64,000 nt of DNA. It comes from Phreatobacter stygius. Its GTDB lineage: Bacteria > Pseudomonadota > Alphaproteobacteria > Rhizobiales > Phreatobacteraceae. Position numbers and translations under genes: made by a program. Where the stretch lies: contig NZ_CP039690.1 of assembly GCF_005144885.1 (NCBI RefSeq), forward strand, positions 4,911,001 through 4,975,000, read 5' to 3'. Positions 8,934-52,173 of this stretch are shown one piece after another (positions within the stretch are counted from its first letter, which is position 1; the number at the start of each line of letters is the position of its first letter). The notes beneath the pieces are model-generated. The model did no database searches. It was given only the letters and a program-made list of their open reading frames with translations, and was not told the origin of the DNA.

Positions 8934-8948
8934 TTATAGCACTTATAG
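8934..8948 (+). promoter_or_regulatory. LysR-type box, copy 1, ahead of the monooxygenase gene
   Basis: TTATAGCACTTATAG contains a T-N11-A core (TATA...TATA) and lies 72 bp before the luciferase-like gene. The same 15-mer, with one or two changes, recurs at 14636-14650 and 15936-15950. Each copy can be read in the same orientation relative to a neighbouring gene. Confidence 0.7.
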
Positions 8949-9020
8949 GATCTCTCTCTTAGACCTGCGTGCCGCTGCATCGTAGCAATCATCGGGCTGC
9001 CACCGTTTGAGGAAAGCGCG

Positions 9021-10106
9021 ATGAAATTCGGTCTGATGACGCAGATCCAGATGCCTCGCCCCTGGACCGAGACGACCGAGCGCAACGCCTATTGGGATGG
9101 CCTTGCCCAGGGTGTTGCGGCCGAGGCCGCCGGCTTCGAATATTTCTGGATCACCGAGCAGCACTTCCTGATCGAGATCGGCCATGCGCCGGCCTCCGAC
9201 ATGTTCCTGGCCGCGCTCAGCCAACGCACCAGGACATTGCGCATGGGGCTCGGCGTCGTGCTTCTGCCGCTGCACAATCCCTTCAGCGTCGCCGAGCGTG
9301 TCGCAACCCTCGATATCCTCAGCAATGGCCGGGTCGAGTTCGGCACCGGCCGCGGCACCACCTCCTACATCCTGAAAGGCATGGGAGTGGATCCGGCCAA
9401 GGGGCGCGAACTCGGCAAGGAATCGCTCGAGGCGATCCTGAAAATGTACGAGGGCGAGTTCTTCACCGGTTACAAGGGCCAGCATTTCGACCTGCCGGCC
9501 CGCCATGTCACGCCGCGCCCGATCCAGCGTCCGCATCCGCCCCTGTGGATCGCCGCGACCAACCTGGAGACCTATGAATTCGCCGGGCGCCAGGGTTTCG
9601 GTGTCATCGGGGTGACCCGCAACAGCCAGGACGACACCAAGGCGGCGGTCCAGCGCTATCGGGCGGCAGCCACCGGCAGCGACCGGTCGAGCCAGATCGG
9701 CAAGGTGGTCAACAACCAGGTGGCGGTGTTCGGCATTGCTTGCTGCCACGACAACGACCGGGTCGGGCGCGAACTCGCCTGCGCCGCGGCGCGCTGGTAC
9801 TACGGCGACAACGATGCCGAACTCAATCACATGCGTTTCACCACGGCCGGCGGCGTCGCCAAGGTGCGCGAGCGCATTTCAGGCTTAAGCAATGACGACC
9901 TGATCGAGAACGGCATGGCGCTCGGCGGCGATGCCGACACCTTGTCGCGCCAGGTCGAGAAATGGGCCAATTGCGGCCTCGACCAGATGATCTTCATGAT
10001 CCAGGCCGGCAATACCAATCATGACCAGGTGATGCGCTCGATCGAGCTGATCGGCGAGAAGGTGATCCCGCGCTTTGCCGACAAGGACTATGCCATCGCG
10101 GTCTGA
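9021..10106 (+). CDS. Luciferase-like (LLM class) flavin-dependent monooxygenase
   Basis: A 361-residue TIM-barrel flavoenzyme of the bacterial luciferase family. It shows WITEQHF, the GLGVVLLPLHNPFSVAERVATLDILSNGRVEFGTGRG block and PRPIQRPHPPLWIA, all typical of LLM monooxygenases that use reduced FMN from a separate reductase. An FMN reductase gene sits 4 kb downstream in the same cluster. GAGGAAAG precedes the ATG. It leads a two-gene unit with an M24 protein and is preceded by LysR box copy 1. The substrate is unknown; cleavage of a C-N or C-S bond or ring oxidation would fit the hydrolases nearby. Confidence 0.92.
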   Translation: MKFGLMTQIQMPRPWTETTERNAYWDGLAQGVAAEAAGFEYFWITEQHFLIEIGHAPASDMFLAALSQRTRTLRMGLGVVLLPLHNPFSVAERVATLDILSNGRVEFGTGRGTTSYILKGMGVDPAKGRELGKESLEAILKMYEGEFFTGYKGQHFDLPARHVTPRPIQRPHPPLWIAATNLETYEFAGRQGFGVIGVTRNSQDDTKAAVQRYRAAATGSDRSSQIGKVVNNQVAVFGIACCHDNDRVGRELACAAARWYYGDNDAELNHMRFTTAGGVAKVRERISGLSNDDLIENGMALGGDADTLSRQVEKWANCGLDQMIFMIQAGNTNHDQVMRSIELIGEKVIPRFADKDYAIAV

Positions 10107-10140
10107 GCCACCCGTTCGCCACGCCAGAGGCTGTCCGCGC

Positions 10141-11295
10141 ATGTCGAAATCCGACTTTCCGCCCGAGGAGTTCGACGACCGGCTGGTGCGTGTCCGTCAG
10201 GCGATGGCGAATGCCGGCCTCGACTGGCTTTTGCTCTTCCATCCCGTCTCGATCCATTGGCTGACCGGCTCGGACGCCAAGGGTTACCAGGCCTTCCAGT
10301 GCCTGCTGGTGCCGGCGGCCGGGGTCGCCCCGATCATGTTCACCAGGCTGTCCGAACAGGCGGAAATCCTTGACGACGCGCTGACCGGCGAGCTGGTCTG
10401 TTGGGGGGGCCCGGAGCCGGAAGACCCGCTGGCGGCCTTCGCGATTCTGGCGCGTCGGCTGGGGCTGCCGGCCGCCCGCGTTGGCATGGAAGTGCCGGCC
10501 TTCTATCTGCATCCGCACCATTATCTCGCGATCAAGGCACTGCTGGGCGATGCCCTGGTCGCCGAGCCGAGCAGCCTCGTCCACGACCTGAAGCTCAGGA
10601 AGTCGGCGCGCGAGCTTGTCCTCATCCGCAAGGCCGCGGCCATCGCCGACCTGACCGTCGAGGCCTTGGTCGGCGCACTTCGCCCCGGCCACAGCGAACT
10701 TGAGGTGACTGCTGCAATCTATCAGGCGCTGCTTGCCGCCGGCGGCGGCCAGCCGGTGACACCGGTCAATCTGGTGTCCGGCCCGCGCGCCGGCTTCAGT
10801 CATGGCGCGCCGACTGAAAGGCGGCTTGAGCCGGGCGACTTCGGCAATGCCGAATATTGCGTGCCCTATCGGCGCTATTCGGTGTCGATCGGCCGGCAGT
10901 TCGCGATCGGCCGGCCCTCAGCACGCATGCTGCAGCTCTACGATGTGGCGCGCCGGGCAAGCGACGCCGCTATTGCGGCGATCCGCGCCGGCGTGCCGGC
11001 CACCGTGCCCCACGAGGCGGCCAAGCGCGTGATCGCGGAAGCCGGGCTTGATCATGCCCGTGTCCACATCTCGGGTTATGGGGTGGCGCCAGGCTTCCCG
11101 CCGGCATCGGGCGAGCCGATCCATCTCTTCGGCGGCAGCCCATACCGGCTGGAGGCGGGCATGGTGCTATCCGTCTGTCCGCCCGTCTTTCTTGGCGAAG
11201 AACGTCTCGGTGCGCGTCTGGTCGACAATGTCCTGGTCACCGAGACCGGTGCCGAACGGTTGTGCCGCGCGTCGCGCGATCTGATCGTCGTGTGA
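10141..11295 (+). CDS. M24-family pita-bread protein, metal ligands lost (paralog A)
   Basis: The 384-residue protein has a creatinase N-terminal domain and a C-terminal pita-bread fold, like Xaa-Pro dipeptidases, creatinase and ectoine hydrolase. The M24 metal ligands are mostly replaced: Glu238 in GDFGNAEYC for the first Asp, Ser249 in RYSVSIGRQF for the second, Tyr313 in SGYG for the His and Cys346 in LSVCPP for a Glu. The conserved SHGAPTERRL block (His221) remains. It is probably a metal-free C-N hydrolase or a diverged enzyme. It follows the monooxygenase by 34 bp and has a close paralog at 14676-15833. Confidence 0.88.
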   Translation: MSKSDFPPEEFDDRLVRVRQAMANAGLDWLLLFHPVSIHWLTGSDAKGYQAFQCLLVPAAGVAPIMFTRLSEQAEILDDALTGELVCWGGPEPEDPLAAFAILARRLGLPAARVGMEVPAFYLHPHHYLAIKALLGDALVAEPSSLVHDLKLRKSARELVLIRKAAAIADLTVEALVGALRPGHSELEVTAAIYQALLAAGGGQPVTPVNLVSGPRAGFSHGAPTERRLEPGDFGNAEYCVPYRRYSVSIGRQFAIGRPSARMLQLYDVARRASDAAIAAIRAGVPATVPHEAAKRVIAEAGLDHARVHISGYGVAPGFPPASGEPIHLFGGSPYRLEAGMVLSVCPPVFLGEERLGARLVDNVLVTETGAERLCRASRDLIVV

Positions 11296-11299
11296 CCCG

Positions 11300-12238
11300 T
11301 CACTCGGGCGGCAATTCGCCCGACCAGACACCGGACTGGACGAGATCACGCACCACCTCCTTGACCGTCTCGGCGAGCTTGCCGATCAGCGTGTGCTGAA
11401 TGTCGGTGCGCGGCACGTTCTGGCAGGTGAGCATGGCGAAGGGCCAATAGGCCGGCGGCTCGAACGAGTGGATCTCCAGTTCGCCGCGGCTCAACTCGCC
11501 TTCGATGGCGCCACGGGTGAGCAGGCTGAAGCCGACGCCCTGGCGCAGCATGGCGCGGGTGATGGTGGTGTCGTCGACCTCCACCTTGGCCGACAGCGAA
11601 ATGCCGCGCGCCGCGGTCCACTTGTCGAGCAGCCGGCGCGAGGCATTGGGCCGGCTCGGCAGGATCAGCGGCAGCTTGGCGAGATCCTCGGTGCGGATGC
11701 GGCCGACGGAAGCACCCAGGCTGCCGGCGCGGCCGACCAGGTAAACCTCTTCGTTGAGCAGCGGCGTCACCTCGAAGCCGCGTTGCGGCACCGGATCGTG
11801 CAGGCAGGCGAGATCGACCTGGCCGCGCACCAGCCATTCGTGGATATAGCCGCTGAAGCCGCCGACGATCTTCAGGAAGACGTGCGGATAGGCTTCACCG
11901 AACCGCTCGACCAGCGGCGGCGCGATGAAATGGCCGGCGGCCGGTGGCACCGCGAAGGAAATCACGCCGGAAAGGCCGGCATGGCCACTGCGGATATCGG
12001 CCTTGGTCTGTTCCAGTTGGCGCAGCAGCAACTGGCTGCGCTCGAGCAGCAGCTTGCCGGCCTCGGTCAGCGTGACGCCATGGCCGTGGCGTTTGAACAC
12101 CGGACGGCCGAGTTCGTCTTCCAGATTGCGGATGGTGCGGCTGACCGCCGGCTGCGAGATACGCAGCAGCTCCGAGCCGCGGCTGTAGCTGCCGCTCTCG
12201 GCGACCGTCTGGAAATAGCGGAGCGCTCTGATATCCAA
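11300..12238 (-). CDS. LysR-family regulator of the 9-19 kb cluster
   Basis: A 312-residue LysR protein with an N-terminal helix-turn-helix (LLRISQPAVSRTIRNLEDELGRPVFKR) and an effector domain. It resembles the Nac/Cbl-like LysR group in opening MDIRALRYFQTVAESGSYSRGSE, split here only for brevity. The start is TTG at 12238: GAGGGG lies about ten bases upstream, and an upstream ATG is followed at once by a stop. It is the only regulator inside the cluster and the likely binder of the three T-N11-A boxes. It ends 5 bp from the convergent M24 gene. Confidence 0.88.
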   Translation of the reverse strand: MDIRALRYFQTVAESGSYSRGSELLRISQPAVSRTIRNLEDELGRPVFKRHGHGVTLTEAGKLLLERSQLLLRQLEQTKADIRSGHAGLSGVISFAVPPAAGHFIAPPLVERFGEAYPHVFLKIVGGFSGYIHEWLVRGQVDLACLHDPVPQRGFEVTPLLNEEVYLVGRAGSLGASVGRIRTEDLAKLPLILPSRPNASRRLLDKWTAARGISLSAKVEVDDTTITRAMLRQGVGFSLLTRGAIEGELSRGELEIHSFEPPAYWPFAMLTCQNVPRTDIQHTLIGKLAETVKEVVRDLVQSGVWSGELPPE

Positions 12239-12311
12239 GTCTTGCGTCCCCTCAGGTCATTTCAGGCATAGCACGACGCAGGACCATGCCGGAACGCAAG
12301 GGGACAGGGCC

Positions 12312-13481
12312 TCATGCCGAGCAATCCTCGATCAGTCGCGCCAGGAAACGTTCGCCCGCCTCGAATTCGGCAATCTCGACGAACTCGTCGGCCTGGTGCG
12401 CCTGGGCAATGTCGCCGGGGCCGCAGACCACCGTCGACCAGCCGGGCTCCTGGAACTGGCCGGCCTCGGTGCCGTAGGACACGACATGCACGCCATTGTC
12501 GCCGGTCAGGCGGCGCGCCATGCGCTCGGCAGCGCCGTCGATCTCGGGTTTCAGGCCGGGCACGAAGGCGCGCGGCACCAGTTCGACCCCCGAATGCGGC
12601 GCGATGCGCTTCATCTCGGGCTCGATGACGTCGCGGATATAGGCGAGGTAGCGGTCGCGAAAATCCGCTGGATCCTCGCTTGGAATGGCCCTGATATCGG
12701 TGACGAAGACGCAGTCGGATGCGACCACATTGCCCGCCGTTCCGCCATGGATCGTGCCGCAATGAAGTGTCGTATAGGGCGGCTCGAACGGATTGGCCGG
12801 ATCGGCCCGACGGGCATTCTCGGCCATGGTGTCGGCAAGCCAGGTGATCAGCCTCGCCGCCACCATGACGGCGCTGACGCCCTGGTCGATGCGGCTCGAA
12901 TGGACGGTATGGCCGGTCACCTGCGTGCGGAACGACAGCGAGCCCTTGTGGCCGGTCACCACCTGCATGCGGGTCGGCTCGCCGACGATGACGGCGGCCG
13001 GCGTCGGCACGGTCTTGACCATCTCGGCCACCATGAAGGGCGCGCCGATACAGCCGACCTCCTCGTCATAGGACAGGGCGATATGGATCGGCCGGGTCAG
13101 CTTGGCGCGGACCATGGCGGGGACGGCCGCCAGGACCAGTGCGTCGAAGCCCTTCATGTCGCAGGTGCCACGGCCGTAAAGCCGGCCGTTGCGTTCGGTC
13201 ACCGTCCAGGGATCGCTGGTCCAGGCCTGGCCCTCCACCGGCACCACGTCGGTATGGCCTGACAGCACCACGCCGCCTGCCACCTCAGGCCCGATGGTCG
13301 CGTAGAGATTGGCCTTGGTGCCGTCAGGGCTCGGCACCAGCCGGCTCGCGATGCCGTGGCTTGCCAGGTAGTCCTTGATGAAGCCGATACAGTCGAGATT
13401 GGAGACGCTCGACACCGTCGGGAAGCCGACCAGCCGGTCGAGCATGGCGCGCGCGGTCAAGGTGACGGGGGCAGGGGACAT
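12312..13481 (-). CDS. M20-family deacylase, ArgE/acetylornithine deacetylase-like
   Basis: A 389-residue zinc-dependent amidohydrolase of the M20 family. It shows the metal motifs SGHTDVVPVEGQ, LYGRGTCDMKG (Asp bridging the two zincs), YDEEVGCIGA (catalytic Glu pair) and a dimerisation-domain HTVHSSRIDQG. ArgE-type enzymes remove an N-acyl group from amino acids. In this setting the substrate is more likely a catabolic intermediate than N-acetylornithine. The start at 13481 (MSPAPVT) is preferred over an in-frame ATG at 13520. It is the last gene of a unit with the FMN reductase and ABM-domain genes. Confidence 0.88.
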   Translation of the reverse strand: MSPAPVTLTARAMLDRLVGFPTVSSVSNLDCIGFIKDYLASHGIASRLVPSPDGTKANLYATIGPEVAGGVVLSGHTDVVPVEGQAWTSDPWTVTERNGRLYGRGTCDMKGFDALVLAAVPAMVRAKLTRPIHIALSYDEEVGCIGAPFMVAEMVKTVPTPAAVIVGEPTRMQVVTGHKGSLSFRTQVTGHTVHSSRIDQGVSAVMVAARLITWLADTMAENARRADPANPFEPPYTTLHCGTIHGGTAGNVVASDCVFVTDIRAIPSEDPADFRDRYLAYIRDVIEPEMKRIAPHSGVELVPRAFVPGLKPEIDGAAERMARRLTGDNGVHVVSYGTEAGQFQEPGWSTVVCGPGDIAQAHQADEFVEIAEFEAGERFLARLIEDCSA

Positions 13482-13548
13482 AAGGGCATCCGAGAGGTCA
13501 AAGGCATGGTCGGGACGCACCCCGAGCCAAGGCTCCGGCGATGCAGGC

Positions 13549-13875
13549 TCATGTCGCCGGGCGGAACGATTCCAGCAGGCCTTGAATATTCGCCACTTTG
13601 ACCTCGCAAAGCGAGACCGATTGCGAGCCGACGATGAATGGCTTCAATGCAGCGGAGAAGGTCTCGGCATAGACCGGCGACGCCTCCCAGGCCTGCACGC
13701 TCGCCATGTCGCGCCACAGCGTGATGGTGAACATGCTCTCGGCGTCGTTGACGTCCTGGCTGACCAGGCGGCCGAGCAGGCCCGGCGTTTCGACAGCCAT
13801 CAGATCCCGATATTTCTGCTCGATCGAGCTCCAGGCGCCGGGATAGATCTTGCCCCAATAGATGCGAACGAACAT
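13549..13875 (-). CDS. ABM (antibiotic biosynthesis monooxygenase)-fold small protein
   Basis: A 108-residue ferredoxin-like barrel protein starting MFVRIYWGKIYPGAWSSIEQ. It has internal ESMFTITLWRDMASVQAWEASPVY, the pattern of ABM/YgiN-type dimeric proteins that act as cofactor-free monooxygenases, isomerases or ring-modifying helpers. GAGAGG is well spaced for the ATG at 13875. An alternative ATG at 13884 forms an ATGA overlap with the upstream reductase gene and adds three residues. It lies between the FMN reductase and the M20 gene, so it probably acts in the same pathway. Confidence 0.78.
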   Translation of the reverse strand: MFVRIYWGKIYPGAWSSIEQKYRDLMAVETPGLLGRLVSQDVNDAESMFTITLWRDMASVQAWEASPVYAETFSAALKPFIVGSQSVSLCEVKVANIQGLLESFRPAT

Positions 13876-13880
13876 CGGCG

Positions 13881-14534
13881 TCATCCTCTCGACAGCGACA
13901 GGCGGGACGGCCCGTCCGGGCCGGCGATCGGCGCATGCGGCGGCGCTGCCGATGTGACGCGGGCGCCGATCTTCATCCGTGCGAACTCGACGACCTGCAG
14001 GCCCACCGCCTGCAACTGGAACTTGGATGAGAGGTCCAGGCACTCCCCCGCATCGTCGAAGAGGCGGGTCGAGGTATTGAGCATGGCCGCGAGCGGCGTC
14101 GGCCAGCCGCGTAGCGCGTGGGCGATGCCGCGCAGGGTCGCCAGGGTCTGGCCGCCGGCCTGCCAGCCGCCGGCGCAGACGATCAGTCCGACGGCCAGCC
14201 CATCGAAATAGACCCGGTCGTCGGTGCGCAGGTCTTCGGTATAGTCCAGCGCGTTCTTGACCAGGCCGGACAAGGTGCCGTGATAGGCCGGTGAGGCGAC
14301 GATCACGCCGTGGCAACGGCGGAAGGCATCGACCAGGCGGGCCGCTTCGGGGGAGCGGTCCGTTTCGCCCGGATTGTACATGGGCAGCATCAGCTCGGGG
14401 CCGCCGATCAGCAGCGTGTCGGCGCCGGCTTCGGCGGCCGCCCTGAGACTCAAGGCCAGGGCACGCTCGGTCGACGAGCCGGCGCGCGGCGTGCCGCCGA
14501 TGCCGAGGATGAGGGGGCGTGGGGCCTGGCGCAT
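13881..14534 (-). CDS. NAD(P)H-dependent FMN reductase
   Basis: The 217-residue flavodoxin-fold protein has the FMN phosphate loop GIGGTPRAGSSTERAL and the family motif VIVASPAYHGTLSGLVKNALDY, as in SsuE/MsuE-type reductases. These supply reduced FMN to luciferase-like monooxygenases, so it is the natural partner of the 9021 gene. The ATG at 14534 follows GAGGACG. It heads a minus-strand unit (reductase, ABM protein, M20 deacylase) with LysR box copy 2 about 100 bp upstream. Confidence 0.92.
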   Translation of the reverse strand: MRQAPRPLILGIGGTPRAGSSTERALALSLRAAAEAGADTLLIGGPELMLPMYNPGETDRSPEAARLVDAFRRCHGVIVASPAYHGTLSGLVKNALDYTEDLRTDDRVYFDGLAVGLIVCAGGWQAGGQTLATLRGIAHALRGWPTPLAAMLNTSTRLFDDAGECLDLSSKFQLQAVGLQVVEFARMKIGARVTSAAPPHAPIAGPDGPSRLSLSRG

Positions 14535-14635
14535 GGACGTCCTCGCACGGGCTTCGGTTGCTCTGCGGCAGTGCCGAGGGCAGCTGCATCGCCCCACTGT
14601 GCGGTCGGCTCACCTATACGTCCAAGGCAAAGCAC

Positions 14636-14650
14636 CTATAGCTGTTATAA
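14636..14650 (-). promoter_or_regulatory. LysR-type box, copy 2, ahead of the FMN reductase unit
   Basis: On the minus strand this reads TTATAACAGCTATAG, whose 13-bp core TATAACAGCTATA has T-N11-A form. It is 101 bp upstream of the FMN reductase start and just beyond the stop of the second M24 gene. Confidence 0.7.
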
Positions 14651-14675
14651 TTGAAATGGTGAAAGCGCGCGCCGT

Positions 14676-15833
14676 TCAGCCGGCCATGATCAGCCCGCGC
14701 GGCTGACGCGACAGCAGTTCGGCGCCGGTCGCGGTCACCAGGACGTTGTCGATCAGGCGGACCCCGAGCCCTTCCTCGCCGATGAAGATCGGCGGCTCGA
14801 CCGAGACCACCATGCCGGCCCGAAGCGTGTAGGTGGCGCCGCCGAACATATTGACCGGCTCGCCCCAGGACGGCGGAAATCCCGGAGCCAGACCATAACC
14901 CGACGTGTGGATCCGGTAGCGGTCCAGGCCCTCGCGGCCGATCACCCGCTTGGCTGCCTCGTGCGGCGCCAGCGCCGGCACGCCGTCGCGGATCTCGCCG
15001 ATCATGGCGTCGGCCGCTTCCAGCGCGATGGCGTGCAATTCGTTCATCCGCGGCGTCGGCATGCCCATGCAGAATTGCCGCCCGATGGTCGCGGTGTAGC
15101 GCTTGAAGGCGGCGCCATATTCGACATTGCCGAAATCGCCCTGCCGGAGCCGGCGTTCCGTCGGCGCGCCATGGCTGAAGCACGAGCGCTCGCCGGAGAC
15201 CAGGTTCAGCGTGCTCGCCGGCAGGCCGCTGCCGCGCTTGAGCAGCGCCGCATAGACTTCCCCCGCAATGGCGAGTTCGGCCGTTCCCTCGTTCAGATGC
15301 GCGACGAAGACCTCGAGGGCCTCGTCGGCGATCCGCGCCGACTGCCTGACATAGGCGAGCTCAGCCGGCGACTTCACCATCTTGAGGTCATGGACCAGAT
15401 TGCTCGGCTCCGCCTTGAGCGCCGCGCCGAGGAAAGTCTTCACGCGCATATAGTGGTGAGGATGCAGGTAATAGGCGGGCACTTCCATGCCGACGCGGCC
15501 GCGTTTCAGCCCGAGCCGGCCGGCGATCCGCTCGAACACATCGATCGGGTCCTCCGGCTCCGCGCCACCCCAGGTCTCGAGCTGGTCGATCAGGGCGTCC
15601 TGCTCGAATTCATAACGCTCGGACTCGCGCGTCAGCATGACGCCCGGCCGGTCCTCGGCCGAAACGATCAGACATTGGAAGGCCTGATAACTCTTGGCAT
15701 CCGAGCCGGTCAGCCAGTGGATCGAGACCGGATGAAACAATACCATCCAATCGAGCTCGGCCGCGGCGATCGCCTGGCGCACCCGCTGCAGGCGCGCGGC
15801 GAATTCGGCGCTGGAGAAATCGGCTTTCGACAT
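14676..15833 (-). CDS. M24-family pita-bread protein, metal ligands lost (paralog B)
   Basis: The 385-residue paralog of the 10141 gene is nearly collinear: shared blocks include DWxxLFHPVSIHWLTGSDAK, RVGMEVPA, YLHPHHY and SHGAPTERRL. Metal-ligand positions are again altered: Glu238 in GDFGNVEYG, Thr249 in RYTATIGRQF and Tyr313 in SGYG. Here the Glu of the SVEPP motif (residue 346) is kept. The pattern resembles creatinase and ectoine-hydrolase-like enzymes that work without metal. It is divergent from the ABC importer, with LysR box copy 3 between them. Two paralogs in one cluster suggest successive or alternative hydrolysis steps, or a heteromer. Confidence 0.88.
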   Translation of the reverse strand: MSKADFSSAEFAARLQRVRQAIAAAELDWMVLFHPVSIHWLTGSDAKSYQAFQCLIVSAEDRPGVMLTRESERYEFEQDALIDQLETWGGAEPEDPIDVFERIAGRLGLKRGRVGMEVPAYYLHPHHYMRVKTFLGAALKAEPSNLVHDLKMVKSPAELAYVRQSARIADEALEVFVAHLNEGTAELAIAGEVYAALLKRGSGLPASTLNLVSGERSCFSHGAPTERRLRQGDFGNVEYGAAFKRYTATIGRQFCMGMPTPRMNELHAIALEAADAMIGEIRDGVPALAPHEAAKRVIGREGLDRYRIHTSGYGLAPGFPPSWGEPVNMFGGATYTLRAGMVVSVEPPIFIGEEGLGVRLIDNVLVTATGAELLSRQPRGLIMAG

Positions 15834-15935
15834 GGTGGCGCGGTCCTCGGGTCAGGCGCGCATCCAGCGCCGCGGGCATCTCGGGATCACGCCGACCCTA
15901 GCGACCCGCCGGGCGGGCCGTCTAAAGCCTTTAGA

Positions 15936-15950
15936 TTATAGCAGTTATAG
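15936..15950 (+). promoter_or_regulatory. LysR-type box, copy 3, between the M24 gene and the ABC importer
   Basis: TTATAGCAGTTATAG with T-N11-A core lies 102 bp from the start of the minus-strand M24 gene and 156 bp from the plus-strand binding-protein gene, so it could serve both divergent units. Confidence 0.7.
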
Positions 15951-16106
15951 CCCCTTGGCATTATGCGGGCGCCGCCTGTTGATCCAATCTCGCCATCGCG
16001 CCTCACGAGATCGTCTCGCGACACGGCGCACCGCCGGCAGGCCGACAGGCCGGCTGGCTCGCGACAGGCCGAAGGCCGCTCGGGGAAGACGATTAGGGGA
16101 TGTTCG

Positions 16107-17225
16107 ATGTCGGGAAAAACACGCGCTGCCGATAACGCGGTCGATCGCTGCATGCAGGCCGAGGCGAGCCTCACCCGGCGCAGCCTGGCGCTCGGGGCCG
16201 CTTCGCTCTCGATGATGCTGGCGGCTCCCGCCTCGCACGCGCAGGGGCGGCCGAAGGTGCGGCTGTGGGGCGCTTCCGCAACGGTTGAGGCCTATCACGG
16301 CTTCCTGTTCCTCGGGAACCCGCTCGGCTTCTTCAAGGACGACGGTGTCGACGTCGAATTCGGTACGGCCGCAGGCTCGGCTGCGACGCTCCAGCTGATC
16401 GCCGCTGGCCAGGTGCAGATGGGTTATATCGGCATGGATGTGCTGATCCTCGCCAAGGCGCGCAACCCGCAATTGCCCATCACGGCCGTCTATCTGCAGG
16501 ATCGCGGCAACATCTATGAGATCGTGGTTCCCGAGGACAGCGCGATCAAGACGGTGGCCGATCTCAAGGACAAGACCATCGGTGTCGCCAATCTGGCCTC
16601 CGGCGCCATTCCCTCGCTGCGGGCGACGCTGACCGATGCCGGCCTCGATCCGAATGCATCGGTCGGCCTGATCCCGGTCGGTAACGGCGCCCAGGCCGCC
16701 GCTGCGCTGCGGGCCGGGCGCATCCAGGCGCTCTCGTTGTTCCGCGCCCAGCACGCCCTGATCGAGACGCTCGGCTTCAAGTTTCGTCGCTTCACCCGCA
16801 ACGCGCCCAGCGCCGTCATCGCGGTCAATACCGCCTTTCTGAAGGACCACCGCGAGGCGGTCATCAAGACCCTGCGCGGCATCGCCAAATCCTCGATCTT
16901 CGCCGAGGTCAATCCGGCCGCGACCGTGCGCCAGTTCTGGGCCATGTTCGGCAAGCCGCAGGGGTTGACCGAGGACGAGGCGATGAAGCGCTCGGCCTAT
17001 ATCCTGAGCTCCACCGCCGAACTGTGGAAGGACTACAAGGACAAGTCCGTGCCTTGGGGCGACATGACCGCCCGGCAGTGGGAGGAGATGCAGAAATTCC
17101 TGATCGACCAGAAGCTGCAGGACAGGCCTGTCGCGATCGAGGCGCTGTTCACCAACGAGCTCACCGCCGAGGTCAACAGGTTCGACCAGGATGCGGTGGT
17201 CGCCGTGGCCAGGGCCGCGCGCTGA
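16107..17225 (+). CDS. ABC transporter substrate-binding protein (taurine/nitrate/sulfonate type)
   Basis: A 372-residue periplasmic binding protein of the NMT1/SsuA-like family. A twin-arginine-like leader (LTRRSLALGAASLSMML, cut near SHAQG) precedes the mature domain, which shows FKDDGVDVEF, GQVQMGYIGMDVL and DLKDKTIGVANL. AGGGGA precedes the ATG at 16107; the longer frame from 15963 is not credible. It delivers a small organic compound to the permease encoded downstream. The substrate is unknown, but placement points to the compound degraded by the cluster. Confidence 0.92.
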   Translation: MSGKTRAADNAVDRCMQAEASLTRRSLALGAASLSMMLAAPASHAQGRPKVRLWGASATVEAYHGFLFLGNPLGFFKDDGVDVEFGTAAGSAATLQLIAAGQVQMGYIGMDVLILAKARNPQLPITAVYLQDRGNIYEIVVPEDSAIKTVADLKDKTIGVANLASGAIPSLRATLTDAGLDPNASVGLIPVGNGAQAAAALRAGRIQALSLFRAQHALIETLGFKFRRFTRNAPSAVIAVNTAFLKDHREAVIKTLRGIAKSSIFAEVNPAATVRQFWAMFGKPQGLTEDEAMKRSAYILSSTAELWKDYKDKSVPWGDMTARQWEEMQKFLIDQKLQDRPVAIEALFTNELTAEVNRFDQDAVVAVARAAR

Positions 17226-17292
17226 ACCCCAGGGATTGTCGGCGGGGCCGGCGCGAAACGGTTCCCGGCCGGACGTGAAGGAGAGGGCGTGA

Positions 17293-18150
17293 ATGGCAAG
17301 CGTGATCGCAAGTGAGCTGGTGACGCGGGCGACGGCGGCCCAGGCGGCCGGGCCGCCGGTCAGCGCGCTCTCGGTGCAGAACGTCAGCATGGTGTTCAAC
17401 CGCGGCGCGGCCGCCGTCCATGCCCTCGATCAGGTGTCGATGGAGGTGCGCGACGGCGAATTCATCGCCATTGTCGGTCCCTCCGGCTGCGGCAAGTCGA
17501 CCCTCATCAAGCTCGTCTCGGGCCTGCGTCCGCCGACCGCCGGGCGGCTCGCCGTCCATGGCCGGCAGGTGATGAAGCCGCGCGGCGACGTCGGCATCGT
17601 GTTCCAGAGCCCGGTCCTGCTGCCGTGGCGGACCATTCTCGACAATGTCATGCTGCCGATCGACGTGTTGAAACAGGATCAGGCCGCCGGTCGCGAGCGG
17701 GCGCTCGACCTGCTCAAGCTCGTCGGCCTCGGCGGCTTCGAGAAGGCCTATCCGAACGAGTTGTCGGGCGGCATGCAGCAGCGCGCGGCGATCGCGCGGG
17801 CGCTCGTCTACGATGCGCCGCTGCTGTTGATGGACGAGCCTTTCGGGGCGCTCGACGCGCTCACCCGCGAACAGATGAATTCCGAGCTGCAGCGGATCTG
17901 GAGCGCCAGCGGCAAGACGGTGATCTTCATCACCCATTCGATCCCCGAGGCCGTGTTCCTGGCCGACCGGATCGTCGTCATGTCGCCGCGGCCCGGCCGG
18001 GTCCTCAAGGTCATCGACAATCCCATCCCACGCATGCGCACGTTGGACGACATGCTGCGGCCGGAGTTCGGCACGCTGGTGCGCGAAATTCGCGGGCTCT
18101 TGGGAAGCTATGTTGCCGGGGAGAGCAATGGATCAAGTTCTGACTGGTGA
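17293..18150 (+). CDS. ABC transporter ATP-binding protein (SsuB/TauB-like)
   Basis: The 285-residue ATPase has Walker A GPSGCGKST, signature LSGGMQQRAAIARAL, Walker B LLLMDEPFGALD and the H-loop in IFITHSIPEA. Sequence type matches importers of nitrate, taurine and alkanesulfonates. GGAGAGG lies ahead of the ATG. The end overlaps the permease start by 23 bp, so the genes are translationally linked. It energises uptake together with the 16107 and 18128 products. Confidence 0.95.
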   Translation: MASVIASELVTRATAAQAAGPPVSALSVQNVSMVFNRGAAAVHALDQVSMEVRDGEFIAIVGPSGCGKSTLIKLVSGLRPPTAGRLAVHGRQVMKPRGDVGIVFQSPVLLPWRTILDNVMLPIDVLKQDQAAGRERALDLLKLVGLGGFEKAYPNELSGGMQQRAAIARALVYDAPLLLMDEPFGALDALTREQMNSELQRIWSASGKTVIFITHSIPEAVFLADRIVVMSPRPGRVLKVIDNPIPRMRTLDDMLRPEFGTLVREIRGLLGSYVAGESNGSSSDW

Positions 18151-18970
18151 CAAAGCCGCCGAAGCCGGCGCCCTGGTCACGGCCGAGCAGCCCAATCGGC
18201 GCCTGTGGGCGCGTTTCGGCATGCCGTTGACGGTCTTCGTGTGCCTCATGGGCTCCTGGGAGGCCCTGATCTGGCTGCTCGACGTCCCGGGCTTTCTCGT
18301 GCCGGCGCCATCGGCCATTGTCCAGGCGCTTTGGTCCGGGCTCGTGACGGGCCTGTATTTCTCCCACGCCGCGGTCACCATGTTCGAGGCTGTCGTCGGC
18401 TTTGCCATTGGCAGCCTGCTCGGCCTGGCGCTCGGCACCGTCATCGTGGTGTTCCCGACCATGGAGCGCATCGTCTATCCCTATGTGGTGGCGTTGCAGA
18501 CCGTGCCGAAGGTCGCCATCGCGCCGCTCATGGTGGTCTGGTTCGGCTTTGGCATAACCTCGAAGATCCTGGTGGTTGCCCTGGTCTCGCTGTTCCCGGT
18601 GCTGGTCAATGTCATGGCGGGCCTTCGCTCGATCGACCAGGACCGGCTGGACCTGCTCGGCGCGCTCGCCGCGTCCCGGTGGCAGATCTTTCGCTATGTC
18701 CGCTTTCCCAATGCCCTGCCGTTCATTTTCGCCGGTCTCAACACCGCGATCGTGCTGGCGGTGATCGGCGCTATCGTCGCCGAATTCGTCGGCTCCAATT
18801 ATGGCCTCGGCTTCCTGATCCTGCAGGCCAACTATCAACTCGACATCGCCGGCGCTTTCTCGCTCTTTGTCGTGCTTTCGGTTATGGGGGTGGCGCTGCA
18901 CGGCTCGTTGAAATGGCTGGAGCGACGCTGCGTATTCTGGATCAACATCGAGGCGCGCAACGGCCTGTGA
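18128..18970 (+). CDS. ABC transporter permease (SsuC/TauC-like)
   Basis: A 280-residue inner-membrane permease with about six helices and the EAA-type cytoplasmic loop (DLLGALAASRWQIFRYVRFPNALPFIFAGL). FLVPAPSAIVQALW near the N-terminus is typical of the BPD permeases for sulfonates and nitrate. The chosen ATG at 18128 follows GGGAGAGC inside the end of the ATPase gene. It completes a three-gene importer. Confidence 0.93.
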   Translation: MDQVLTGDKAAEAGALVTAEQPNRRLWARFGMPLTVFVCLMGSWEALIWLLDVPGFLVPAPSAIVQALWSGLVTGLYFSHAAVTMFEAVVGFAIGSLLGLALGTVIVVFPTMERIVYPYVVALQTVPKVAIAPLMVVWFGFGITSKILVVALVSLFPVLVNVMAGLRSIDQDRLDLLGALAASRWQIFRYVRFPNALPFIFAGLNTAIVLAVIGAIVAEFVGSNYGLGFLILQANYQLDIAGAFSLFVVLSVMGVALHGSLKWLERRCVFWINIEARNGL

Positions 18971-46072: not shown

Positions 46073-46969
46073 TCACGCGGCTCTTGCGGCGACCGCCCTG
46101 GCGCGCGTGAGCAGGGCCTCCGCCCGTTGCACGATCGGGATGTCGATCATCTTGCCGTCGATGGCAAAGGAGCCGCGGCCTTCCGCCGCCGCTTGCCGGT
46201 CGAGTGTCACGATGCGCTCGGCCTCGGCGATCTCCCTGGCCGACGGGCTGAAGCCGGCATTGAGGATCGGCACCAGGGACGGGTGGATGCAGGCCGAGCC
46301 GACAAAGCCGAAATCGGCGGAGCGGCGGACGATCCGCGCATAGCCTTCGATGTCGGCGAAATCGGCGACCGAACCGATGGTCCCGAGCGGCAGGATGCCG
46401 GCGGCGGTTGCGGCCTGCACGATCTGCTGTTTGGGCATCAGCATGGTCTCCTCTGACGGCTTGGCGCCGATGGCGGTGGCATAGTCCTCGGCACCGAGCG
46501 AGATGCCGGCGAGCCGTGGTGTCGAGCGGGCGATCTCATGGGCCCGGGCCAGGGGGCCTGGCGCCTCGATCAGGCCGATGAACCAGATCTTGCCGACGGG
46601 GAGACCACGGGCCTGTTCGAGCCGGGTGACCATCTCGTCGAGCAGTCTGAGGTGCTCCGGGCCCTCGACCTTGGTGATCTTGATGGCGTCGACACCGGCG
46701 ATGACGGCGGCCTCGAGGTCGCGCACCGCGAGCTCGAGCGGTTGGTTGATGCGCACCATGACGTCCGAACGGCCCTGGGCCCGGAAGCGCTGGACAATGC
46801 CCGGCACCAGCCCCCGCGCGGCCTCCTTCTGCGCCAGTGGAATGCTGTCTTCGAGGTCGATGATCAGCGCGTCGGCGCCGCGTTCGGTCGCCTTGGCGAC
46901 GAAACGTTCGACATTGGCCGGTACGAACAGCGCCGAGCGCCAGACCGGGAACTTGCCTGTCGTGATCAT
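46073..46969 (-). CDS. CitE-like CoA-ester lyase (HpcH/HpaI family)
   Basis: The 298-residue TIM-barrel enzyme has SALFVPANVERFVAKATERGADALIIDLEDSIP (Asp/Glu for Mg), VMVRINQP, AIKITKVEGPEHL, IGLIEAPGPL and ISLGAEDYATAIGA, with SACIHPSLVPILNAGF near the end. Relatives cleave malyl-CoA, citramalyl-CoA or related hydroxyacyl-CoA by a retro-Claisen step. It overlaps the CoA-transferase gene by ATGA. The two would activate and split an imported acid. Confidence 0.92.
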   Translation of the reverse strand: MITTGKFPVWRSALFVPANVERFVAKATERGADALIIDLEDSIPLAQKEAARGLVPGIVQRFRAQGRSDVMVRINQPLELAVRDLEAAVIAGVDAIKITKVEGPEHLRLLDEMVTRLEQARGLPVGKIWFIGLIEAPGPLARAHEIARSTPRLAGISLGAEDYATAIGAKPSEETMLMPKQQIVQAATAAGILPLGTIGSVADFADIEGYARIVRRSADFGFVGSACIHPSLVPILNAGFSPSAREIAEAERIVTLDRQAAAEGRGSFAIDGKMIDIPIVQRAEALLTRARAVAARAA

Positions 46970-48222
46970 GCTTTCTTCTCCCTGGCGAGCCCTGAGGTGA
47001 GCGCCGCCTCGATCTCGGCCGGGCTGAGCCCGGCCTCTTTCAGGATGTCGCGGGTGTGCTGGCCGAGCCTCGGCGCCGCCGTGCGGATGCTGCCGGGTGT
47101 CGCCGAGAGCCGTGCCGGCACCGCATGCATCGGGAAGCTGCCCATGTCTTCGTCCGGATAGTCGGCGAGCAGCGCGCGCGCCTGGACGTGACGATCCTGC
47201 ATGAAGCGGGCGATGTCGTTGACCGGGCCTATGGTCACCTCCTCGGCCTCGAAGAAGGCGACGTTCTCGTCGACCGTGCGGGCGCCGACGAATTCGCCAA
47301 TGATCCGGTCGAGCTCCTCGACATGGACCAGCCGCTGCTCGTTGGTCTTGAAGCGCGGATCCTCGCAGAGCTCCGGTCTGCCGATCGAGCGCAGCACGCG
47401 CATGGCCATGCCCTGGGTCGAGGCGGAGAGACAGACCCAGCCGCCGTCGCCGGCGCGATAGACATTGCGCGGCACGGACCCGCTGGAGCGGCTGCCGCTG
47501 CGCGGCTTGATCTTGCCGGTGAGCCGGTAATTGGCGGCCTGCGGCCCGAGCGAATTGAAGATCGGGTCGAGCAGCGGCAGGTCGATCACCTGGCCGCGCC
47601 CGCCATTGACCTCGACCTCGCGCAGCGCCGCCATGGCGGCGAAGGCGCCGGTGAGGCCGGATAGCGCATCGGCGAGATACATCGGCGGCAGCACCGGCTC
47701 GCGATCGGCAAAACCGTTCATTTCGGCAAAGCCGGAAAACCCCTCGACCAGGGTGCCGAAGCCCGGCCGGCGGTGATAGGGCCCGGTCTGGCCCCAGCCG
47801 GAAATGCGCACGATCACCAGTTTCGGTTCGAGCTTCAGAAGCTCCTCCGGCGCCAGGCCCATCTGTTCGAGCGTGCCCGGTCGGAAGCTTTCGATCAGCA
47901 TGGCCGCGCCCGGCACCAGCCGGCGGATCAGCGGCACCGCCTCGTCGTGACGAAACTCGACACAGAGGCTGCGCTTGTTGCGCGAATGGATCTTCCAGGT
48001 GGTCTCGACATCGTTGATGCGCCAGCCGCGCAAGGTGTCGCCCTCGCGCGGTTCGACCTTGACCACGTCGGCGCCGAAATCGGCGAGGTGCTGGGTCAGG
48101 AGATTGCCTGCGACCAGCCGCGACAGGTCGACGACACGCAGGCCGGTCAGCGGGCCGCGCGCACCGGGCGTGTAATCGGCTTGCGGCAGGCCTGACGCGG
48201 CCCTTTCAGAGGGATTTGGCAT
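46966..48222 (-). CDS. Family III CoA-transferase (CaiB/BaiF)
   Basis: The 418-residue enzyme starts its domain at LTGLRVVDLSRLVAGNLLTQHLADFGADVVKVEP. It has WKIHSRNKRSLCVEF, ISGWGQTGPY and the catalytic Asp at about residue 185 (PPMYLADALSGLTGAF). Family III enzymes move CoA between carboxylic acids. It overlaps the ABC ATPase gene by 17 bp and the lyase gene by 4 bp, so production with the importer is enforced. The likely acceptor is the imported acid. Confidence 0.93.
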   Translation of the reverse strand: MPNPSERAASGLPQADYTPGARGPLTGLRVVDLSRLVAGNLLTQHLADFGADVVKVEPREGDTLRGWRINDVETTWKIHSRNKRSLCVEFRHDEAVPLIRRLVPGAAMLIESFRPGTLEQMGLAPEELLKLEPKLVIVRISGWGQTGPYHRRPGFGTLVEGFSGFAEMNGFADREPVLPPMYLADALSGLTGAFAAMAALREVEVNGGRGQVIDLPLLDPIFNSLGPQAANYRLTGKIKPRSGSRSSGSVPRNVYRAGDGGWVCLSASTQGMAMRVLRSIGRPELCEDPRFKTNEQRLVHVEELDRIIGEFVGARTVDENVAFFEAEEVTIGPVNDIARFMQDRHVQARALLADYPDEDMGSFPMHAVPARLSATPGSIRTAAPRLGQHTRDILKEAGLSPAEIEAALTSGLAREKKA

Positions 48223-49309
48223 GCGTTTGTCCTGGAAAAAGAATGCCGCCGGCGACCGGCAGCCAGAGGCTCAGTTCGGCGGCCGAGGTCGCCTCCGATG
48301 TTTCGATGCGCAGCGGGCTGCCGCCGAGATCGAGGCCGATCTGCCAGCGCCCGCCGACATAGGCATGGCTGGTGACGCGGGCCCGGATCACCGAGCCGCC
48401 GGGCTCGGCCGGACCTTCGGGCACGACGCGCATCTGTTCCGGCCGGAAAGCGAGGGTGACCTTGTCGCCCTTGACCGGCCGCCGCTCGGTCGCAATGGCG
48501 ATGCGCTGGCCGCCGGGCAGCGTCACCGTGGTTTCGCCGCCGGCCCCGGGGGCTTCAGCCACTTCGCCGGCGAGGAAATTGGTGGTGCCGATGAAGTCGG
48601 CGACGAAGCCGTCGGCCGGCTTTTGATAGATCTCCTGCGGCGTGCCGATCTGGGCGATGCGGCCACCATTCATCACCACGATGCGGTCGGACAGCGCCAG
48701 CGCCTCGACCTGGTCATGGGTGACATAGATGGTGGTCAGCCCGAGCCGGGTACGCAGTTCGGCCAGCCAGGTGCGGGCCCGGTCGCGCAGCTTGGCGTCG
48801 AGATTGGACAAGGGTTCGTCGAGCAGCAGGATTTCCGGCCGATAGACCAGCGTGCGGGCAAGCGCCACGCGTTGCTGCTGGCCGCCCGACAGCTCGTGCG
48901 GATAGCGGGCCTGAAACCGCTCCATCTCGACGAGCGCGAGTGCCTCTTCGACCCGCCGTTTGCGTTCGGAACGCGAGACTTGGCGCAGGGTCAGCGGGAA
49001 CACGACATTGTCGTGGACGGTCATGTGCGGCCAGAGCGCGTAGCTCTGGAACACAAGGCCGCAATTGCGCGCCTCGGGCGCCAGGAAAATGCCGCGGGCG
49101 CCGTCGAAATAGACCGTCTTGCCCACCGTGATGCGGCCGCCGGTCGGCTGTTCCAGACCGGCGATGGCGCCGAGCGTTGTCGATTTTCCGCAGCCCGAGG
49201 GCCCGAGCAGGGTGACGAACTCGCCGTCCGCGACGGTCAGGTTGATGTCGTCGACGGCCCGGATCGCGCCGAAATGCTTGTCGAGGTTTTCGATCGTCAG
49301 TTCAGCCAT
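48206..49309 (-). CDS. ABC transporter ATP-binding protein (Fbp/Pot type)
   Basis: The 367-residue ATPase shows Walker A GPSGCGKST, signature LSGGQQQRVALARTL, Walker B LLLDEPLSNLD and switch His in YVTHDQVEAL. A C-terminal TOBE-type regulatory domain follows (residues about 285-360). The sequence class serves iron, polyamine, phosphonate and organic-acid importers. It overlaps the permease gene by 8 bp and the CoA-transferase gene by 17 bp. Confidence 0.95.
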   Translation of the reverse strand: MAELTIENLDKHFGAIRAVDDINLTVADGEFVTLLGPSGCGKSTTLGAIAGLEQPTGGRITVGKTVYFDGARGIFLAPEARNCGLVFQSYALWPHMTVHDNVVFPLTLRQVSRSERKRRVEEALALVEMERFQARYPHELSGGQQQRVALARTLVYRPEILLLDEPLSNLDAKLRDRARTWLAELRTRLGLTTIYVTHDQVEALALSDRIVVMNGGRIAQIGTPQEIYQKPADGFVADFIGTTNFLAGEVAEAPGAGGETTVTLPGGQRIAIATERRPVKGDKVTLAFRPEQMRVVPEGPAEPGGSVIRARVTSHAYVGGRWQIGLDLGGSPLRIETSEATSAAELSLWLPVAGGILFPGQTHAKSL

Positions 49310-51050: not shown

Positions 51051-51054
51051 GCCG

Positions 51055-52173
51055 TCACCGGATGTTGAAGGTTTGTTTCCAACGCGCCAGGAACGCGTCG
51101 TAGTCCTTCAGGGCATCGGCGTCGTAGCCGACATAGATCATGTTCTGTTCGCCGACGATCTCGGCGATCGAGGAATAGGTGTGGCGGATGCCGTCGCCGG
51201 GCTTGACGCCTGGGCGTGCCGGGGTCAGGCCGCCGCGGCCGAAGGCGCGCTGGCCCTCTTCCGAGATGATGAAGTCGAGCATCAGCTTGGCGGCATTGAG
51301 GTTCTTCGAGCCCTTGGGGATCGCCACCCCACGCAGCACCATGGGCTGGCCGTCGGCGATGAAGCTCCAGCCGAGAATGCGGGCGCGCGCCGGGTCGGCG
51401 AGGCGCGGCCAGAAGGTGATCGCCGAGACGAACCAGCCGGTGGCATATTCGCCGGCGGTGACCTTTTCGGTCATCGGCCCGCCCGAGCGCTCGAACCGCG
51501 GCTGCAGCTTGGCGAGTTCGGCGAACCAGGCCCAGGCCTTCTCGCCGTGCTTCTTCACGAAGGCATAGTTGATGCCGTAGCCGAAGGTCACCTGATGCGC
51601 GCCATAGCTGGTGATCTTGTTGCGCCAGGCCCGCTCGTTGGCAGTGGTGAGCGCGACGAGTTCGGCGAAGCTCTTCGGGCGTTTGCCCTCCGGCACCAGC
51701 GTGTTGTTCCAGATGAAGGCCATCGGGTCCGATGACACCGTGTAGAGGCCGGGGAAGGGTTTCGACCAGTCCGGCCAGGCCTTGGCCTCCGGCGAGACAT
51801 AGTCGAGAATCTCGCCGCGGGCCTGGAAGTCGATCCAGCCGCCCGGATCGGCGGTTGCGATCAGGTCGGCGCTGCGGCTGTTGGTGCTGCGTTCGGCCAG
51901 ATAACGCTCGAAGCTCTCGCGCGAGGCCGGCAGGTCGAGGGTCTCGACCTTGATCTTCGGATAGAGCCTGTTGAAGCTCTCGATCACCGGCCGCCAGTTC
52001 TCCGGCGACATGATCGAATAGATCAGCAGGCTGCCTTCGCGTTCGGCCTGGGCGATGGTGTCGCGGTAGCTGTCGGGATAGCCGGCCGGCAAGCCTTGAG
52101 CACGCGCGGCGGGAATGCCGAGCGCGCCGACCAGGGACAGCGCCAGAACCTCTCTGCGATCGATCGTCGACAT
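51055..52173 (-). CDS. ABC transporter substrate-binding protein (Fbp-like)
   Basis: The 372-residue periplasmic protein begins MSTIDRREVLALSLVGALG, with a cut near ARAQG. It has EREGSLLIYSIMSPENWRPVIESFNRLYPKIKVETLDL, GLYTVSSDPMAFIWNN, and AIPKGSKNLNAAKLMLDFIISEEGQRAF. The class includes ferric, thiamine and organic-acid binders. The typical paired Tyr of iron binders is not evident, and the downstream CoA enzymes favour a carboxylate substrate. It heads a five-gene operon facing a GntR gene. Confidence 0.92.
   Translation of the reverse strand: MSTIDRREVLALSLVGALGIPAARAQGLPAGYPDSYRDTIAQAEREGSLLIYSIMSPENWRPVIESFNRLYPKIKVETLDLPASRESFERYLAERSTNSRSADLIATADPGGWIDFQARGEILDYVSPEAKAWPDWSKPFPGLYTVSSDPMAFIWNNTLVPEGKRPKSFAELVALTTANERAWRNKITSYGAHQVTFGYGINYAFVKKHGEKAWAWFAELAKLQPRFERSGGPMTEKVTAGEYATGWFVSAITFWPRLADPARARILGWSFIADGQPMVLRGVAIPKGSKNLNAAKLMLDFIISEEGQRAFGRGGLTPARPGVKPGDGIRHTYSSIAEIVGEQNMIYVGYDADALKDYDAFLARWKQTFNIR

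Follow-up and report, generated by a model that had tools for sequence, protein, structure and literature searches.

The window examined here is a 64,000-nucleotide stretch of the Phreatobacter stygius genome (GCF_005144885.1, contig NZ_CP039690.1, positions 4,911,001 to 4,975,000, forward strand), and genome scans covered 7,354,671 bases (7.35 Mb). By Pfam and NCBIfam, ten genes in the window encode a luciferase-like monooxygenase (LLM), two M24 proteins (M24a and M24b), a LysR-type regulator, an M20 protein, an ABM-fold protein, an FMN reductase (FMNr), an NMT1-type binding protein (SBP), an ABC ATPase and a permease, which bears out the gene set named in the original prediction. These genes and their promoter elements are as follows.

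8934..8948, plus strand: LysR-type box TTATAGCACTTATAG, before LLM-M24a
8935..8964, plus strand: composite promoter unit box-N10-CTTAGAC, before LLM; 0 mismatches
9021..10106, plus strand: LLM, luciferase-like (FMN-type) monooxygenase, 361 aa; Pfam Bac_luciferase, 174 bits
10141..11295, plus strand: M24a, immediately after LLM; M24/creatinase-fold hydrolase that lacks the metal ligands and has Cys where Glu is otherwise retained (Pfam/NCBIfam, alignment)
11300..12238, minus strand: LysR-type regulator, which ends the FMNr-ABM-M20-LysR unit (Pfam/NCBIfam)
12312..13520, minus strand: M20 deacylase, start codon uncertain; NF005710, 514 bits (cut-off 412), and TIGR01892, 428 bits (cut-off 297.7)
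13549..13878, minus strand: small ABM-fold protein; PF03992, 32 bits (cut-off 23.1)
13881..14534, minus strand: NAD(P)H:FMN reductase (FMNr), start codon chosen by us; PF03358, 81 bits
14620..14649, minus strand: composite promoter unit box-N10-CTTGGAC, before FMNr; 0 mismatches
14636..14650, minus strand: LysR-type box TTATAACAGCTATAG, before FMNr
14676..15833, minus strand: M24b, M24/creatinase-fold hydrolase, most metal ligands missing (Pfam/NCBIfam, alignment)
15920..15949, minus strand: composite promoter unit box-N10-TTTAGAC, before M24b; 1 mismatch
15936..15950, plus strand: LysR-type box TTATAGCAGTTATAG, between the divergent M24b and importer genes
16107..17225, plus strand: NMT1/THI5-type periplasmic binding protein (SBP); PF09084, 87 bits
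17293..18150, plus strand: ABC ATPase, NitT/TauT type (Pfam/NCBIfam)
18128..18970, plus strand: ABC permease (Pfam/NCBIfam)

The boxes predicted at 8934 (plus), 14636 (minus) and 15936 (plus) are exact at all three places. With up to three mismatches allowed, the window holds six box matches, each of which coincides or overlaps with one of these sites, where 0.21 would be expected, and none of 100 shuffles gave six. Across the genome, the 13-base core, TATARCASYTATA, occurs exactly only at the three window sites; one mismatch adds six further places, compared with 61 matches for the reversed pattern, searched in the same way as a control. Two of the six were inspected (L006 and L007; L004, L005, L008 and L009 were left out). 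L006 probably lies within a gene, because long open reading frames of 447 and 482 aa run through it, one on each strand, and L007 is in an open reading frame, near its end, with no suitably placed gene after it. LysR-type promoters follow a T-N11-A rule, and a dyad of this form is present near the genes that would be regulated.

The boxes are part of a longer promoter unit, box-N10-YTTNGAC, present at three window promoters (LLM, FMNr and M24b); this composite unit is new here. In the direction of the importer, the box at 15936 does not have the N10-YTTNGAC spacing. A wider regulon was considered and rejected, as a whole-genome search with two mismatches gave one further composite match, at 4372594-4372623, within an open reading frame near its end and with no suitably placed gene after it. 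With up to three mismatches, the genome has 11 composite matches in all against 26 for the reversed control, so that matches with three mismatches carry no meaning.

To follow the promoter unit in relatives, we built a profile derived only from the three window sites and scored it on the relatives' loci against 1000 shuffles, with LLM-free M24 loci, among them L039, L041 and L046, as controls. The unit is found 79-119 bp before the LLM gene in five of nine relatives' clusters (L098, L026, L043, L028 and L023), with no shuffle reaching the score in any of them, and before FMNr in L022, where 4 of 1000 shuffles do. It was undetected before LLM in the other four clusters, L024, L025, L027 and L040 (129, 279, 390 and 104 shuffles of 1000, respectively). 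An LLM gene without an adjoining M24 gene, in L062, is also preceded by the unit, which the same profile does not find at LLM homologues L063-L066.

All ten genes occur together in L019, at 94-98% identity (M24a, 90%), and on one contig of a Salinarimonadaceae metagenome-assembled genome (L022 and L098), at 55-75% identity; recurrence of all ten genes in a distant relative is new here. A core of five to six genes is present in six further loci. LLM, M24, LysR and importer are found together in L023, L026 and L028, and LLM, M24 and importer without LysR in L025, L027 and L040. An M24a-type copy lies directly behind LLM in three lineages, M20 and ABM were seen only in L019 and L022/L098, and FMNr was seen in these and in L024. 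For nine of the ten loci found through M24b, LLM is present in the genome, and in a class sample of 385 genomes M24b occurs in 8, LLM in 7 and both in 5, where 0.15 would be expected. Away from M24, the neighbors of LLM homologues L065 and L066 are unrelated and those of L062 include TctA/TctC transporter genes; neighbors of L063 and L064 were left out of the annotation. With box and genes conserved together in relatives and the box infrequent elsewhere in the genome, the proposal that the genes form one set behind a rare shared box holds.

Homologues of the M24 proteins are publicly annotated as 'Xaa-Pro peptidase', and peptide or dipeptide utilization by true Xaa-Pro metallopeptidases, with the other genes as unrelated neighbors, would agree with the closeness of M24b to prolidases in sequence and fold. 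M24b scores higher with metal dipeptidases (112 bits) than with ectoine hydrolase (92 bits), and Foldseek places Xaa-Pro peptidases at ranks 1-9 and ectoine hydrolase at 10, a fold comparison that leaves EutD and prolidases unseparated. At the five metal positions (D, D, H, E, E), however, M24b has E238, T249, Y313, E346 and I361 and M24a has E, S, Y, C and V, while ectoine hydrolase 6twk has E, P, Y, M and T, as read from the alignment. Of the five metallopeptidase ligands, M24b keeps one Glu (E346) and M24a none as such, and Glu for the first Asp and Tyr for the metal His are found in 29 of 29 aligned M24 relatives. M24b and 6twk also have in common a GY...PPxWGE stretch; M24a, in which a further Glu-to-Cys change is present, is without its Trp, leaving M24b alone with the full set of Asp-to-Glu, His-to-Tyr and PPxWGE. 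Because most metal ligands are lost, and Asp-to-Glu and His-to-Tyr are as in ectoine hydrolase, M24a and M24b are probably metal-free C-N hydrolases and unlikely to be metallopeptidases. For this M24 clade the public 'Xaa-Pro peptidase' annotation is thus probably an error. As the promoter element is shared and the neighborhood with LLM and importer is conserved, we consider peptide utilization very improbable.

Creatinase (creatine amidinohydrolase) carries out metal-free C-N hydrolysis. It belongs to the same fold family (1kp0, Foldseek rank 26), but identity is 18%, and the comparison covered the protein alone. The His that is creatinase's base (H221) has Ile in its place in L025 and L027, two of the 29 relatives, which counts against the reading favored below.

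For both M24 proteins the best-scoring NCBIfam models are ectoine hydrolase, which raises the possibility of an alternative route for ectoine- or hydroxyectoine-like compounds, with M24a/b in place of EutD and M20 in place of EutE. The scores are nevertheless far below cut-off (M24a 143 and M24b 128 bits against 575 for NF038259; 107 and 127.5 bits against 613 for TIGR02993). An ectoine-synthase-like gene directly precedes LLM in a single locus, L024, and in the four other genomes that have such a protein, it and the M24b match are on different contigs. In LLM-free L050/L051, an M24b homologue is accompanied by an amino-acid importer, an AstE/AspA-type deacylase, a Thr/Ser dehydratase and RidA, also in keeping with ectoine-like utilization. 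The excerpted text of PMC5924519 gives the ectoine catabolic cluster as eutABC, eutE, EnuR and the Ehu/Ueh transporter, and the pathway there is without an oxygenase. Judged by best family, our ten genes include no eutABC, eutE, EnuR or Ehu/Ueh transporter gene, and the host genome has no PF06339 match. Compared with EutDE/DoeAB, the genes appear to share an M24-fold, ring-opening-type hydrolase with replaced metal ligands, an N-deacylase, and an importer and regulator in the cluster, but differ in having a flavin monooxygenase with FMN reductase, two divergent M24 copies, an M20 rather than AstE/AspA-type deacylase, an NMT1-type importer, and LysR rather than EnuR. We regard ectoine-like utilization in this form as unlikely.

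Two-component LLM systems in catabolism include SsuDE, NtaA/EmoA, RutAF and TgnAB. Like them, the set has an importer and an FMN reductase alongside its luciferase-like oxygenase; unlike them, its LLM is below the cut-off of each of 25 NCBIfam models listed, of 29, and is coupled to M24 proteins resembling EutD. One could imagine a system for organosulfur compounds or sulfonates in which LLM with its FMN reductase carries out desulfonation or C-S cleavage, an SsuABC-like importer brings in the substrate, and M20 deacylates N-acetyl-S-alkylcysteine, for which the Bacillus snaA/yxe systems are a model. The NitT/TauT-type importer, SsuE as the nearest, weak model for the FMN reductase (25 bits, cut-off 164) and a 72-bit SsuA_fam score for the SBP fit such a system. 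Yet LLM reaches 41 bits with the alkanesulfonate monooxygenase (SsuD) model TIGR03565, whose cut-off is 518, the SsuA_fam score is below its cut-off of 163.5, the ten genes include no sulfur genes, and two EutD-like M24 proteins would be left unexplained. This makes the organosulfur alternative doubtful.

The predicted model of the SBP matches thiamin-bound 4nmy first and formylaminopyrimidine-binding 3ix1 second among PDB entries, followed by 3qsl (Bordetella, no ligand named) at ranks 3-4, the HMP synthase Thi5 from rank 5 and SsuA from rank 12. A profile search also places 4nmy first, then 3qsl and 3ix1, and a C-terminal WGxM...W...FL stretch is common to the SBP and 4nmy. Degradation of a 2-methylpyrimidine, such as the pyrimidine moiety of thiamin or products of its breakdown, would join ThiY-like import to oxygenation by LLM, opening of a 2-methyl amidine by M24 and removal of acetyl by M20; the related EutD acts on ectoine, itself a 2-methyl-tetrahydropyrimidine. 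Against this, the SBP model is only of moderate quality (pLDDT 77.6, compared with 47-56 for the four others), with ~22% identity to the best match, and in L062 it is the TctA/TctC genes that adjoin LLM instead. At the gathering threshold, Rfam has no match in the window, so there is no TPP riboswitch, in which the set also differs from ThiXYZ/ThiY formylaminopyrimidine import; in seven relatives' loci it matches only tRNA. A TPP riboswitch or, tRNA apart, another known RNA was therefore rejected for these regions. Overall, 2-methylpyrimidine degradation is a tentative and rather unlikely reading.

Taken together, we favor, at a probability of about 0.55, a self-contained, oxygen-dependent catabolic regulon under LysR control that would take up an N-heterocycle or cyclic amidine, oxygenate it with flavin, hydrolyze C-N bonds and deacylate the product, with 2-methylpyrimidine-like and ectoine-like compounds as the leading guesses. 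SBP, ATPase and permease would import the compound, and the FMN reductase, judging by family, would supply reduced FMN to LLM for its oxygenation. M24a and M24b, as metal-free pita-bread hydrolases of the creatinase/ectoine-hydrolase type, a role suggested by their active-site residues, would open C-N bonds of the product. M20, whose scores exceed both acetylornithine deacetylase cut-offs and suggest a deacylase, may then take off an N-acyl group, much as the deacetylase does in ectoine catabolism. LysR would bind the TTATA-N5-TATAG box, whose motif and fixed spacing of 10 bases before the -35-like YTTNGAC are observed, and would switch three promoters together, its own included, as it is at the end of one controlled unit. 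Weighing against this reading are the closeness of M24b to peptidases in sequence and fold, the few loci with M20, ABM and FMNr, the four clusters in which the promoter unit went undetected before LLM, and its presence at the L062 LLM gene. The earlier proposal that this gene set matches no described pathway is upheld, in that none was found in open-licence PMC literature, where some searches were aimed at ectoine, thiamin or trigonelline and not at the full gene set. A riboflavin/lumichrome pathway (PMC12746152) was set aside; its main text has no words beginning luciferase, creatinase or peptidase.

Read in this way, ten genes with vague annotations become one unit that carries a promoter signature and can be tested, and its regulator and binding protein are handles for a direct substrate search. 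A more speculative, and improbable, version is an undescribed aerobic pathway in which LLM converts an N-heterocycle, aromatic or 2-methyl (thiamin pyrimidine or similar), to the substrate of paired metal-free M24 hydrolases, one of a new Cys-bearing type, so that a single conserved LysR promoter code would govern both flavin oxygenation and the ectoine-type opening of an amidine. For the regulon as favored, an aminotransferase and an HpcH/HpaI-type aldolase that adjoin M24 in two relatives, L022 and L024, suggest that the end product may be an amino acid on its way to pyruvate or a similar compound. Against this, the homologues of these two enzymes in the host genome are only distant (aminotransferase, best 47%; aldolase, best 40%).

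The window (G000:C1:4911001-4975000, in a genome that is one contig of 7.35 Mb) carries a catabolic regulon that is real and conserved and, as far as literature searches reach, undescribed, and whose presumed mechanism is read from protein families. Sequence matching and family annotation found every box and gene where the original prediction had placed it. The genes form three units: luciferase-like monooxygenase (LLM)-M24a (+); FMN reductase (FMNr)-ABM-M20-LysR (-); and M24b (-), divergent from SBP-ATPase-permease (+). The box was expected to be rare outside the locus, and exact matches to its core, TATARCASYTATA, are confined genome-wide to the three box sites; with one mismatch the core occurs at six more places, the reversed control giving 61 matches at the same setting. 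A composite unit, box-N10-YTTNGAC, is common to three sites.

Composite units in the window, by position of the box
8934, plus strand, before LLM: TATAGCACTTATA-N10-CTTAGAC
14636, minus strand, before FMNr: TATAACAGCTATA-N10-CTTGGAC
15936, read towards M24b: TATAACTGCTATA-N10-TTTAGAC

Facing the importer genes, the 15936 box lacks this spacing (3 mismatches). By inference, YTTNGAC looks like a -35 element.

Relatives were found with M24b as query, our own genome being counted in every sample. M24b occurs in 5/397 genomes of the order sample (E<=1e-70), in 8/385 of the class sample (E<=1e-90) and, among 398 genomes of the phylum sample (E<=1e-90), in our own genome only; a search of genome contigs gave 10 loci. 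As predicted, the genes co-occur: all ten lie together in L019, on a contig of G006 from the same genus, and on one Salinarimonadaceae MAG contig of 46,159 bases, which L022 and L098 span with no difference in the part they share. Identities on the latter contig are LLM 75%, M24a-type 55%, M24b 66%, LysR 57%, M20 61%, ABM 58%, FMNr 69%, SBP 64%, ATPase 68% and permease 67%, and an aminotransferase, an HpaI-type aldolase and a CoA-transferase stand among the ten genes. LLM, M24, LysR and importer are together in L023, L026 and L028; LLM, M24 and importer, without LysR, in L025, L027 and L040; LLM and M24 in L043; and LLM with two M24 genes in L024, FMNr lying ~9 kb off. LLM is present in L019 and in eight of the nine genomes of L020-L028 (L020 is the exception), on a different contig in that of L021. 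In the class sample LLM occurs in 7/385 genomes (E<=1e-100), and five genomes hold both LLM and M24b against 7 x 8 / 385 = 0.15 expected (P 1.7e-8; without our own genome, 4 against 0.11, P 5.8e-7), statistics that ignore genome kinship, use E-value limits of our own setting and take the two 385-genome samples as the same genomes, their handles agreeing. Two of the five, G517 and G611, have the two genes on different contigs. At E<=1e-60, G048, G365, G122, G482, G685 and G449 lack LLM; in G048, G365, G482 and G685, an IclR regulator and a binding protein of amino-acid type lie close to the M24b homologue. The supposition that no known pathway has this gene set agrees with searches of the open-licence PMC literature, which showed none. 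Unlike the other named M24b matches from the contig search, labelled Proteobacteria or subgroups thereof, the L020 homologue (64%) lies in a MAG labelled Fuerstiella, presumably Planctomycetes, through mis-binning or transfer.

A profile built from the three window sites only served to scan the 250 bases upstream of genes in the relatives, with gene starts from BLAST or ORF ends and 1000 shuffles each. Nine clusters, not counting the close copy L019, have LLM near M24; in five of these (L098, L026, L043, L028 from Plastoroseomonas and L023 from an Acetobacteraceae MAG; 0/1000 shuffles each) the composite unit precedes LLM, 79-119 bp upstream on the same strand. It was undetected before LLM in the other four (L024 129, L025 279, L027 390 and L040 104 of 1000 shuffles); in L024 and L040 LLM follows closely on the end of another gene. 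A further five upstream regions from LLM-M24 loci gave 4/1000 (L022 FMNr), 31/1000 (L022 LysR), 285 (L024 EctC), 583 (L040 SBP) and 427 (L045 LysR). All six LLM-free M24 loci (L050, L038, L039, L041, L044, L046) were unremarkable for the unit (126-833 of 1000 shuffles), as were four of five control LLM genes without adjoining M24 (117-768). The fifth control, L062, has the unit (0/1000 shuffles); M24 was not found in the 19.7 kb of this locus, and its genome, G517, has an M24b homologue on a different contig. In L062:5545-9974 the unit and LLM lie together with the transporter genes TctC and TctA. The plain 13-mer with two mismatches matches 4/12 upstream regions (shuffle mean 0.037; 0/300 shuffles reach 4), two of the four being one divergent site.

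Public records name the M24 homologues "Xaa-Pro peptidase", a naming against which their residues speak. At the D,D,H,E,E positions of Bacillus PepQ (3q6d), which we take to be the metal ligands, we read from the alignment E238,T249,Y313,E346,I361 in M24b, E,S,Y,C,V in M24a and E,P,Y,M,T in ectoine hydrolase (EutD, 6twk). The first-position Glu and third-position Tyr occur in 29/29 aligned M24 sequences, and the position of H221, presumably creatinase's base, is Ile in two of the 29 (L025, L027). EutD and creatinase function without metal. M24b scores higher with prolidases (112 bits) than with EutD (92 bits), and Foldseek places EutD at rank ten. A FastTree tree groups M24a with L019_a, L098_a and L024_2 in a single clade (support 0.956). 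Each of the four has Cys at the E346 position, lacks the Trp of PPxWGE and is encoded immediately 3' of LLM, which makes the M24a/M24b pair an old, differentiated one.

An N-heterocyclic or cyclic-amidine carboxylate is weakly favoured as the candidate substrate class by several clues together: the nearest structures to SBP (a moderate predicted model) are thiamin and formylaminopyrimidine binders; the M24 active-site changes are common to the ectoine-opening enzyme; M20 lies above acetylornithine deacetylase cut-offs; an aminotransferase and an HpcH/HpaI aldolase adjoin M24 in L022 and L024; TctA/TctC-type transporter genes adjoin LLM in L062; and an ectoine-synthase-like gene (L024:13348-13758; 149.9 bits, NCBIfam cut-off 128) directly precedes LLM in L024 and is itself preceded by LysR and an epimerase-like gene.

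Two Mesorhizobium plasmids carry an LLM-free relative (L050:12802-20946, L051:2610-10754) with an M24b homologue (59-60%), a two-RidA-domain protein, IclR, an amino-acid ABC importer, an AstE/AspA-type deacylase and a Thr/Ser dehydratase; the set resembles an operon for ectoine-type utilisation whose M24 is non-canonical. In G048, ectoine-synthase-like domains stand in tandem inside single open frames (C5:2120-2908, C336:5044-5832). PMC13188858 reports putative ectoine clusters in further phyla, additional Thermodesulfobacteriota clusters usually having two eutD homologues, and its main text has no word starting luciferase, M24 or creatinase. Within the window, 46076-52173 may be a second catabolic cluster: at a guess, from the ORFs' first residues only, it would encode an ABC importer beside proteins like HpcH/HpaI and CaiB.
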